40,598 bases of DNA, from positions 1-40,598 of the forward strand of contig JAENZX010000033.1 in the NCBI GenBank assembly GCA_016841045.1, read 5' to 3'. The notes under the pieces were generated by a model. That model made no database searches. It saw only the letters and a list, made by a program, of their open reading frames with translations, and was not told where the DNA came from. The stretch is from Thermincola carboxydiphila (GTDB lineage: Bacteria; Bacillota; Thermincolia; Thermincolales; UBA2595). The position numbers and the translations under genes are program-made. This document shows, one piece after another, positions 5,804 through 35,272 of this stretch; position 1 is the stretch's first letter, and every line of letters begins with the position of its first letter.

Positions 5804-5835
5804 AGATTCAATTATATTTAAAAAGTAAATGGTAA

Positions 5836-6112
5836 TGATGGGGATATTAATACATTGAGAAGGCTACAGAGAGCCGGTCAAGGGCTGAAAGCCGGTGCCA
5901 AATTATGTACTATTGCTCACCCCTGAACTGACTGTCGAACGGTGTTATACATACCTAGTAGGCATCTCCGGTGCATACCGTTAAAATGCATTGGTCACAA
6001 TAAGTGGCTCTGTTCCAGTCATAATCCGGTGCAGGGCAAACAGGGTGGTACCGCGGAAGGTTTAACTCTCGTCCCTGATAGTTTCAAGACTGTCTGGGCG
6101 GGGGTTTTTTTG
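5836..6112 (+). promoter_or_regulatory. T-box leader (tRNA-sensing riboswitch), probable leucine specifier
   Basis: The hallmark T-box sequence AGGGTGGTACCGCGG is at 6042-6056. Stem I features precede it: CAGAGAG on the 5' side near 5870, a GC-rich hairpin with GCTGAAAGCCGG, and on the 3' side CTCACCCCTGAAC. By position I read CTC (5916-5918, followed by A) as the specifier codon, which would sense uncharged tRNA-Leu. An intrinsic terminator follows at 6066-6111. T-boxes let transcription proceed when the matching tRNA is uncharged, so leucine shortage should switch on the whole ilv-leu-cimA operon. The class call is firm; the specifier is my inference, and the exact 5' boundary is approximate. 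Confidence 0.92.
6066..6111 (+). terminator. T-box regulated intrinsic terminator
   Basis: The region starting CTCGTCCCTGATAG pairs, with G-U pairs and one bulge, with CTGTCTGGGCGGGG, and is followed by seven T. Its 5' arm lies directly after the T-box bulge sequence, which would otherwise form the antiterminator. Confidence 0.85.
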
Positions 6113-19463: not shown

Positions 19464-21386
19464 ATGGAAAACAATAACATTGAGAGTCGCGTGTTTTATC
19501 CTTCCGAGGAAGTTATCAATAATGCCAATATTAAGCAGGCAATGTACGACGAGGCTAAAGCGGACCGCCTTGGTTGGTGGAAGAAGCAGGCCGACGAGCT
19601 GGTATCTTTTTTCAAGCCTTATGAAAAAGTTTTGGATGATAGTAATCCTCCGTTTTACAGGTGGTTTACCGGTGGAACAACTAACGTATCCTATAACTGC
19701 ATTGACCGCCATTATAATTCGCCGAAGCGGAACAAAGCAGCTATTTGTTATGAAAGTGAAATCGGCAGAAAAGTCGTTATGACATACAGAGACCTTTATG
19801 TTGAGGTAAACAAATTTGCCAATGTCTTAGCGGGATTGGGTGTTGAGAAGGGCGACAGGGTATGTCTATATATGCCAATGGTTCCAGAGGCTGCTGTGGC
19901 AATGCTGGCCTGCACCAGGATCGGTGCAATTCACTCAATTGTATTTGGGGGCTTCAGTTCCGACTCGCTGGCTGACAGGATTAATGATGCACAGGCGAAA
20001 GTCGTAATCACTGCTGACGGTAACTTCCGTAAAGGTACACCGTTCCCGCTTAAGGTAAATGCCGATGTTGCCATGCAGAATACACCTTCAGTCGAAAAGT
20101 GTGTTGTTGTAAAGAATGCCGGTAACGATGTGGAAATGGTTGAAGGCCGCGATGTTTGGTATCATGAACTGATGGCAGGCGCCGCTAAATACTACGAGCC
20201 TGAAGAGATGGAAAACGACGCTCCGTTATTTATATTATATACTTCCGGTTCCACCGGAAAACCAAAAGGTGTTCAGCACACTACAGCTGGATATCTGACT
20301 CAGGTTCAGTCTACACTGAAATACGTTTTTGACCTAAAGGAAACCGATACCTTCTGGTGCACTGCAGATATCGGTTGGATTACCGGTCACAGCTATGTGG
20401 TCTACGGCCCACTGGCACTTGGCATGACCACCTTTATGTATGATGGTACAGTTGATTATCCTGAAAAGGATAGGATGTGGGATATGGCTGAAAGATGGGG
20501 AGTAACAGTATTCTATACTGCCCCTACAGCTATCAGAACCTTCATGAAGTGGGGTGCTGAGTATCCTAAGAAGCATGACCTGTCACAAATCCGCCTGCTG
20601 GGTACTGTTGGCGAGCCTATCAACCCAGAGGCATGGATGTGGTATCACGAAAATATTGGCGGAGGCCGCTGCCCGATAATGGATACATGGTGGCAGACAG
20701 AAACCGGTGGCTTCATGATAACACCGACTCCGATGGTTTCTTTGAAGCCGGGTACTGCAACTATTCCGTTCCCTGGCATAGAGGTGGATATTGTTGATGA
20801 GAATAAGCAATCAGCAGATACAGGATACCTTGTTGTAAAATCTCCGTGGCCCTCGATGCTGATGACCATCTGGGGTGATGACGAGAGGTATATTGACCAG
20901 TACTGGAAGCGTTTCGGGGACTTTTACTTCGCCGGTGACGGAGCCAAGAGAGATGAAATGGGTTACATTTGGGTAACCGGTCGTGTTGATGATGTTCTTA
21001 ACGTTTCAGGTCACCGTCTCGGAACTGCTGAAATAGAAAGCGCACTGGTTGAATGCACGGAAGTTGCAGAAGCAGCAGTAATTGGTAAGAAGCACGATGT
21101 TAAGGGTGAAGCGCCATGTGCCTTCGTTATCCTTAAAGATGGTTATGAAGGAAACCCTGAGCTTATAGATAAGCTTAAGAAGCATGTAGGAGTGAAGATT
21201 GGTCCCATCGCCCGTCCGGATGATGTTATTTTCACTGCAGGTCTTCCAAAGACCCGTTCCGGTAAGATTATGCGCCGTCTACTCAGAGATATTGCAGAAG
21301 GCCGGACCTTGGGTGATGTAACTACATTGGCAGACCCTGGTGCTATGCAGGAGATTGCCTCTAAGTACAGCGGCAAGGAAGAATAA
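19464..21386 (+). CDS. acs: Acetyl-CoA synthetase (AMP-forming)
   Basis: The 640-residue enzyme activates acetate with ATP and CoA, and has the full length of the Acs family. The P-loop-like motif [11 protein letters not shown], the TWWQTETGG motif, and the C-terminal [15 protein letters not shown] with its catalytic, acetylatable lysine are all intact. [13 protein letters not shown] near residue 66 is the usual Acs N-terminal region. ATG 19464 follows GAGGAGG at normal spacing. It is a single-gene unit between the operon terminators and its own hairpin. A related but different AcsA-type gene with an internal deletion lies about 1.2 kb downstream. Confidence 0.96.
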
Positions 21387-21411
21387 TTTAATGTAATATA
21401 AAGCTATTAAG

Positions 21412-21460
21412 GGGAGCGTCCCATAAGTTAAAAACTTATGATGACGCTCCCTCTAATTTT
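21412..21460 (+). terminator. Long hairpin terminator after acs
   Basis: GGGAGCGTC (21412-21420) pairs with GACGCTCCC (21443-21451), and inside it CATAAGTT (21422-21429) pairs with AACTTATG (21433-21440). A weak T-rich tail (TCTAATTTTTG) follows. Confidence 0.75.
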
Positions 21461-21475
21461 TGTTATAAAAGTTTA

Positions 21476-21497
21476 GTGGGCTCTTTCTCAAGCCCAC
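21476..21497. other. Small GC-rich hairpin in the acs downstream gap
   Basis: GTGGGCT (21476-21482) and AGCCCAC (21491-21497) form a 7-bp stem. A second palindrome, GCAAGT-GGGC-ACTTGC, lies at 21618-21633. Between them the sequence is AT-rich and I see no gene. Both precede the long hairpin element at 21664 and may belong to it. Confidence 0.5.
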
Positions 21498-21663
21498 TGA
21501 ATAGTTGCCAACATAGACAAGTTATGTGCTATACATAACAGTCCCCACTCAACATTAAATTTTTCAATATTGTATCAAACCAGGTATTTTCATTTTTTGC
21601 CGCAATCCCGCCCATAAGCAAGTGGGCACTTGCCTGAGATTTTTTTATTTTCCTTGCGGGTAA

Positions 21664-21897
21664 GTCCGGGAATCCGGTGGGGCGTTGCGTAAGATTTTCC
21701 CTGCACCGGCGTTGTGAGGAATTTTACCGAAGCCTCCGCTAAGCGAAGTCACAGACCGGAGCCACGGATGGCGGAGCCGCCCCTGAGGCAGGAGCCGAAT
21801 TGGGCGGTTTAGTCTGTGACTTCGCCAGGAGCAAGGTTAGATTCCTCTGACGCAGGTGTGGAAAATCGGCGCAATGCCTCGCCGGATTCCCCGGCAC
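21664..21897. repeat. Long imperfect hairpin element, ~234 nt; candidate structured RNA or palindromic mobile element
   Basis: The stretch folds on itself in register through nested arms: 21664-21689 with 21870-21897 (near-complete, with G-U pairs), GATTTTCC 21693-21700 with GGAAAATC 21860-21867, 21709-21722 with 21841-21853, and a perfect 14-bp arm GCGAAGTCACAGAC 21743-21756 with 21812-21825. The 55-nt apical part contains the small hairpin GGCGG-AG-CCGCC (21770-21781) and three GGAGCC units. It is much more GC-rich than its flanks. No significant open frame runs through it. I do not recognise a known RNA family. It could be a structured non-coding RNA, a MITE-like palindrome or a decayed mobile element; the spared pairing with G-U pairs favours an RNA role. 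Confidence 0.75.
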
Positions 21898-21968
21898 TAA
21901 GTTTCAGGAGTTTGAAAAAAAGGAACGCCCCATTTTGGACATTCCCACTTCGTTTATGTTGAATTAAT

Positions 21969-31500: not shown

Positions 31501-31587
31501 GCTGCTAAATGCCTACAGAACAATTAAATATGGGAAAACTTAATATAGTTCAAAAAAATAATAAGCTACGCACTAATCACTAATGAA

Positions 31588-31755
31588 GCGCCTGAGCTTA
31601 GTTCTAAGTAGTGAGGCTAACTGAAGTGGGATACTACACACTACCACTACCCACTAAGCTGACGAGGAGGGAGTTTATCGATTTTCGGCGGATGCTCCCC
31701 GGCTTCCACAAGCCGTTAGATGCAAACAAAACATCCGGTGACGGGTGAACAAATA
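31588..31755 (+). promoter_or_regulatory. glmS ribozyme-riboswitch with an extended P1 arm
   Basis: The order of conserved elements matches the glmS ribozyme: a predicted cleavage site before G31588 (AA|GCGCC), the P1 hairpin AGCTTAGT (31595-31602) with ACTAAGCT (31653-31660), GACGAGGAGGGAG and TTATCG from 31661, then TTCGGCGGATGCTCCCCGGC, GCAAACAAAACATC and a final GGTGACGGGTGAAC. It self-cleaves when glucosamine-6-phosphate binds, lowering glmS expression. The P1 loop is about 50 nt long and made of AGTAGTG and CACTACCCACTA units like the dispersed repeats. The 3' boundary is approximate. glmS starts about 40 bases further on. Confidence 0.93.
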
Positions 31756-31795
31756 TTGCTGATAGTGGGATTACAAAGCGGAGGTTTTATTACAC

Positions 31796-35033: not shown

Positions 35034-35171
35034 AGGAATTTGATTCTCTTAAATCTTCAAAAATTCAAAAAGGTGAATTAAAACAGAGCAGGAAAATAAA
35101 TTATCTAAATCAAAAAGAAGGAAAAATAGGAAAAATGTAGAATTTGATACAAAAACACATACTCCCTGATA

Positions 35172-35252
35172 AAGGCATACTCGTCGAAAGGCGGGGACGC
35201 AAAGCTGCGGGTCTAAGACAGGTAAGATCCTGTTACGATAGCCGGGCCACCA
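35172..35252 (+). promoter_or_regulatory. Cyclic-di-GMP class I (GEMM-I) riboswitch
   Basis: The sequence CGTCGAAAGGCGGGGACGCAA carries the conserved GAAA tetraloop hairpin and GGACGCAAAGC core, followed by GCGGGTCTAAG, a variable hairpin (CAGGTAAGATCCTG) and ATAGCCGGG, in the order of the GEMM-I aptamer. It precedes an intrinsic terminator and then a secreted protein gene. GEMM-I aptamers usually bind c-di-GMP; a few variants bind cGAMP, which I cannot exclude by eye. GATAG at 35237-35241 in the 3' strand could pair with CTATC in the terminator 5' arm, hinting at how it works, but I do not claim ON or OFF. Confidence 0.93.
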
Positions 35253-35272
35253 AAGGAAGTACAGAAATAGTG

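Follow-up and report, generated by a model that had tools for sequence, protein, structure and literature searches.

A diverged relative of TwoAYGGAY in Thermincola carboxydiphila: a dispersed hairpin element with a putative paired CsrA site

Background

TwoAYGGAY (RF01731) is a long stem whose top carries a pair of neighbouring hairpins with loops of the ANGGA type, and its function has been unexplained since 2010. Weinberg et al. 2010 marked it as not cis-regulatory (PMC2864571). A CsrA link and a CsrA-site pattern were already proposed for it in 2015, without validation. The CsrB, RsmY and RsmZ sponges carry paired GGA hairpin loops suited to the CsrA dimer (PMC4333381, PMC4383904).

Here we consider a hairpin in a contig of Thermincola carboxydiphila (JAENZX010000033.1, 40,598 nucleotides); the window means this whole stretch. 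The element has the architecture of TwoAYGGAY, but in the window copy one hexaloop is cut to AGGA and the copy falls below Rfam detection. Its GGA motifs sit in hairpin loops and in pairs, as in CsrB, RsmY and RsmZ. Those are one or two multi-site sRNA genes, whereas this element occurs as many dispersed two-site copies. It is short, non-coding and dispersed, has inverted ends, and is present or absent between relatives, all as in MITEs and REPINs. What is unusual for a MITE is that its arms covary from genus to genus while the internal loops and the tip stay conserved. Unlike REPINs, it is not consistently accompanied by a REP-type Y1 transposase, and no partner transposase was found among the Y1 enzymes. 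Group IIC introns associate with intrinsic terminators. The element shares this association, but it has no Rfam intron domain match, it is a single palindrome, and several copies have target duplications.

The hairpin and its repeat unit

An earlier note, made from the sequence alone, described a nested hairpin of 234 bases. Folding agrees: the interval 21640-21920 has a minimum free energy of -158.7 kcal/mol, while 200 dinucleotide-shuffled versions of it give -98.4 +/- 5.4 (z = -11.1). The note was also right that the hairpin is GC-rich in AT-rich surroundings (60.7% GC, with 36% on its left side and 35% on its right). There is indeed a perfect inner arm of 14 bp, and the apical mini-hairpin and the three GGAGCC units are present as well, the units starting at 21758, 21773 and 21791. 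The gap without genes, put at 580 bases, runs from 21387 to 21968 and is 582 bases long. To its left is a full-length acetyl-CoA synthetase-type gene (19464-21386). To its right a 176-aa reading frame lies on the other strand from 21969; it is without Pfam support and its family was not recognised. The hairpin does lie at 21664-21897 as noted, but those limits are slightly short, because the repeat unit common to other copies is 21576-21946. By blastn this interval is covered at 88-89% by copies L003 and L004, and from 21599 by L005 and L006. Taken whole, the unit forms one long palindrome, imperfect and with covarying arms. Its parts are as follows.

21576-21946, plus strand: repeat unit including the flanking terminator-like hairpins, from blastn against other copies in the same genome
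21623-21646, plus strand: intrinsic-terminator-like hairpin with a T run, facing inward from the left (0.9 such sites per region expected by chance, 3 found)
21664-21897, plus strand: main nested hairpin as first noted, from folding
21693-21867, plus strand: inner domain within covariance model R1 (G000:C39:21693-21867, 193.7 bits on the minus strand)
21693-21700, plus strand: motif 1, a recurrent internal loop, 5' half GAUUUUCC, conserved in types A-E; partner 21860-21867
21722-21729, plus strand: motif 2, 5' half UUUUACCG, CUUACC in most copies, kept while adjoining stems change
21743-21756, plus strand: 14-bp inner arm, 5' half, perfect pairing
21761-21772, plus strand: apical hairpin 1, GCC-ACGGAU-GGC, an ANGGAN loop of CsrA-site type by sequence and fold
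21787-21796, plus strand: apical hairpin 2, GGC-AGGA-GCC, a shortened GGA loop by sequence and fold
21812-21825, plus strand: 14-bp inner arm, 3' half, perfect pairing
21834-21840, plus strand: motif 2, 3' half AGGUUAG, kept while adjoining stems change
21860-21867, plus strand: motif 1, 3' half GGAAAAUC, conserved internal-loop motif
21911-21946, minus strand: intrinsic-terminator-like hairpin with a T run, facing inward from the right (stem 21946-21921)

Covariation and the reading strand

The structure of the element is under selection. In an alignment of 15 sequences of the inner domain there are 56 pairs, and in 18 of these both partners have changed in a compensatory way, which is the covariation that the earlier note had asked for. 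Pairing holds in 96% of the alignment cells and drops to 28-46% once the partners are slid; none of 500 shuffles reached the observed level of covariation. Among variable pairs in subtypes A, B, D and that of G009, counted as those departing from the commonest Watson-Crick form, the AYGGAY strand has 77 G.U cells and 31 A.C cells. The nominal p of 1e-5 for this excess is too small because the copies are related. The excess favours the AYGGAY (plus) strand as RNA. We take the plus strand of the window as most probably the functional one.

The tip is conserved. Exactly two GGA-containing apical hairpin loops are found on the AYGGAY strand in 64 of 78 copies and on the opposite strand in none; the copies with no such loop are mostly those carrying tip insertions. 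The GGA loop of hairpin 1 is present in nearly all copies without such insertions. Hairpin 2 has an ANGGAN loop in many relatives and its closing stem covaries. The closing stems of the tip vary between GCC/GGC, GGC/GCC, GUC/GAC and GAC/GUC. One ANGGAN hairpin appears in 5% of shuffles. It must be noted that the window tip itself has one ACGGAU loop and one AGGA loop, rather than two AYGGAY loops.

Copies, subtypes and relation to TwoAYGGAY

A copy-number search suggested in the earlier note gave 7 long matches at 84-100% identity, the window's included, plus fragments in the 4.16-Mb assembly of the same genome. Of this subtype 6-7 copies are near-complete. There are further subtypes, fragments, and copies whose tip holds a nested insert, so the hairpin is not an isolated RNA. 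The truncated copies in this genome (L013, L015, L018, L011/L012 and L009) keep the 3' end of the plus strand, and are too few to judge. Several Thermincola copies (such as L007, L091 and L101) have a short conserved tail, CAAGGYGCRAAGCCTTGAACATAAAG and ATTTCCGAGAGACTTA in the minus-strand sense, beyond the big hairpin. This tail belongs to the inserted unit. A coding origin was considered for the apparent reading frame through L007 and dropped, as its neighbours give no support.

Covariance model R1, built on the minus strand with the window copy among its 15 sequences, finds members in all 9 Thermincolaceae genomes searched. There are up to 56 matches in one genome; such counts are upper bounds, as those with E above about 1e-8 stem in part from other palindromes or from the opposite strand of genuine copies. 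The subtypes are type A (the window), B (G002), C (G001) and D (the window's own genome). Their stem sequences differ, but two internal-loop motifs are retained in all four: GAUUUUC/GGAAAAUC and CUAACC/GGUAAG, the latter in the minus-strand sense. G009, from a sister family, carries a subtype of its own in 17 places or more, and nine genomes of other orders have at most one weak match. The core pattern also matches in Thermincola ferriacetica MAGs and in Firmicutes HGW-Firmicutes-8. The plasmid and phage collections held no match to the element, and viral contigs did not contain the exact core.

The hairpin had been thought to match no known RNA class. This is true of the window copy, which has no RF01731 match up to E = 10 with default or relaxed Rfam thresholds and does not reach the gathering cut-off of 43 bits. 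It is not true of its relatives. Two G009 copies pass the cut-off (L225 with 49.1 bits and L259 with 46.7), and so does G007:C5 with 53.0 bits, while copies of types A, B and D score 38-41 bits, just under it. Relatives over the threshold occur in G009, G007, G002, G008 and G004. The conserved core and R1 tie the window copy to those in the last four of these genomes. The window copy is therefore a diverged relative of TwoAYGGAY and not a member by Rfam's own threshold. In a phylum sample scored at up to 13 candidates per genome, 27 of the 199 genomes have RF01731 matches, often in 10 copies or more. In another family, two TwoAYGGAY copies (L294 in G039 and L282 in G116) each appear to have one and the same terminator-like hairpin on either side.

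A second structured repeat, type E, occurs in multiple copies in G004, G007, G008 and G002 (such as L211, L212, L213 and L302-L321). Its inner part is about 226 nt, and 36 of 85 consensus pairs show at least two Watson-Crick types. The outer arms and loop motifs are like those of type A, and the tip is unrelated and without GGA loops. The two type E copies compared with Rfam gave no match up to E = 1. G004 has type E at two sites where G007 holds type A.

Mobility

The flanks of G007 copies were compared with two further genomes of its genus, and four G007 insertions have continuous empty sites in G004, G008 or both. The cleanest is GGATATGTA|AGAGAGG in G004, where G007 has the whole unit. Terminal inverted repeats GGGCTTGTTGRCAAAT are present in the G002 and G001 elements, with 81 occurrences in G002 where the reversed control gives 3. 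Direct flanking repeats of at least 5 bases are found at 6 of 23 G002 and G001 elements, compared with 1.8% of mispaired flanks. The flanking duplications that the earlier note proposed to look for thus exist in relatives, at lengths of 5-10 bases, but neither a duplication nor an empty site is established for the window copy. Several elements lie within a loop, either of a terminator hairpin or of some other palindrome, and there are arms-only versions of 86-105 bp.

The same note had offered a new structured RNA or a MITE-like palindrome. Both halves have something to them, since the structure covaries with an asymmetry of G-U over A-C and the repeat is dispersed, with empty sites among relatives. 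It is not wholly new, given its kinship with TwoAYGGAY. Mobility appears to be the new part: hairpin elements of the TwoAYGGAY group appear dispersed in this lineage in a MITE-like manner. Open-access literature mentioning TwoAYGGAY, in its accessible text, has no account of mobile repeats, inverted ends, empty sites or target duplications. We infer from its relatives that the window copy is mobile. An inverted repeat common to all families was rejected; TTGTTGACAAA is clear in G001 and G002 and has only 3 matches in the flanks of distant copies. An autonomous element of 1-2 kb with the G002 ends was not found in G002. A RAYT/REP system was rejected as a general partner because the Y1 transposase is absent from the element-rich G002 and G008.

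CsrA and gene context

CsrA is present as a single copy in all 7 complete Thermincolales genomes, and the host's own is at G000:C48:142364-142519 (E = 1e-25). The element has paired GGA hairpin loops, as in a CsrA sponge, and its host encodes CsrA. Of the 27 genomes in the phylum sample with RF01731 matches 26 encode CsrA, against 110 of the 172 that lack them (p = 2.9e-4, lineage not controlled). Counted by genus the figures are 21 of 22 and 93 of 140 (p = 0.005, again with lineage not controlled). Since lineage is not controlled, this co-occurrence is support and not proof. Some observations count against a CsrA decoy, namely the AGGA second loop of the window copy, which is not ANGGAN, and the many copies that are antisense in operons. 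No plus-strand promoter was found for the window copy. Together with the terminator-like hairpins facing inward from both sides, this means that the window copy may hardly be transcribed. A search of open-access literature found none joining CsrA with miniature inverted-repeat elements in the sense of a decoy.

One can imagine that the element is a cis-regulatory RNA of the adjoining genes. Rfam gives TwoAYGGAY the type 'Cis-reg', and some copies lie within operons, for instance between spoVAD and spoVAE (names read from translation). However, among 71 copies the neighbours are both opposite to the AYGGAY strand in 29, both the same in 18, convergent in 17 and divergent in 7. This mixed orientation with few divergent cases argues against cis-regulation and favours insertion at gene ends. 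The same locus is also occupied or empty across sister species, and the 2010 marking points the same way. We rejected cis-regulation on the mixed gene orientation and consider it very improbable. The evidence suggests that the 'Cis-reg' label is misleading.

Which explanation is best?

We argue, with somewhat more confidence than doubt, that the window copy belongs to the TwoAYGGAY group as a diverged copy and that in this lineage the group is a mobile hairpin element carrying a putative paired CsrA site. The argument is built on dispersal, covariation, conservation of the GGA loops, presence and absence in sister species, target duplications at some of the copies and co-occurrence with CsrA, all of which are observed. 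The tip shows two GGA-loop hairpins side by side, an arrangement in which one CsrA homodimer could clamp one RNA. Copies that are transcribed would titrate CsrA or recruit it locally, and so alter its activity. The palindromic ends would be the substrate of a transposition enzyme supplied in trans.

A rival scenario is a purely selfish palindromic element of the REPIN or MITE kind, whose mobilising enzyme recognises the folded DNA or RNA including the GGA loops, with CsrA irrelevant. The empty sites, inverted ends and target duplications all fit this, as do the nesting in terminator hairpins and other palindromes and the arms-only versions. Type E fits too, with shared outer arms and loop motifs and no GGA tip. 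Yet such an element does not predict GGA loops that stay conserved on covarying stems, an overrepresentation of CsrA among genomes matching RF01731, or the surplus of G.U over A.C that points to RNA. We think it a serious candidate, though on balance an unlikely one. Retroposition in the manner of a SINE, in which a reverse transcriptase acting in trans copies the folded RNA into terminator-like targets, would account for target duplications whose length varies (5-10 bases), for truncated copies that share one end and for the association with terminator hairpins. There are very few such cases, however, and a DNA element predicts inverted ends equally, so we regard retroposition as improbable.

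The preferred reading, a mobile element with a paired CsrA site, could be extended. TwoAYGGAY might be the cargo end of an unrecognised class of mobile hairpins, possibly spread through RNA, that seeds CsrA decoys and whose tip is exchangeable, as in type E. This is speculative and we hold it to be rather doubtful. If the CsrA link is true, it would give Clostridia RNAs that bind CsrA, a kind otherwise described in Gammaproteobacteria alone. Mobility of the copies would mean that CsrA decoys can multiply and turn over like transposable elements, a new route to the rewiring of a global regulator. Mobile copies would also make the old question of TwoAYGGAY directly testable.

Other features of the window

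A 207-aa reading frame at 22519-23142 matches only the N-terminal part of AMP-binding enzymes. It is possibly a fragment of a second copy of the nearby acetyl-CoA synthetase (19464-21386). Three known RNAs in the window are over their Rfam cut-offs: a T-box leader at 5826-6079, a glmS ribozyme at 31576-31771 and a c-di-GMP-I-GGC riboswitch at 35165-35255.
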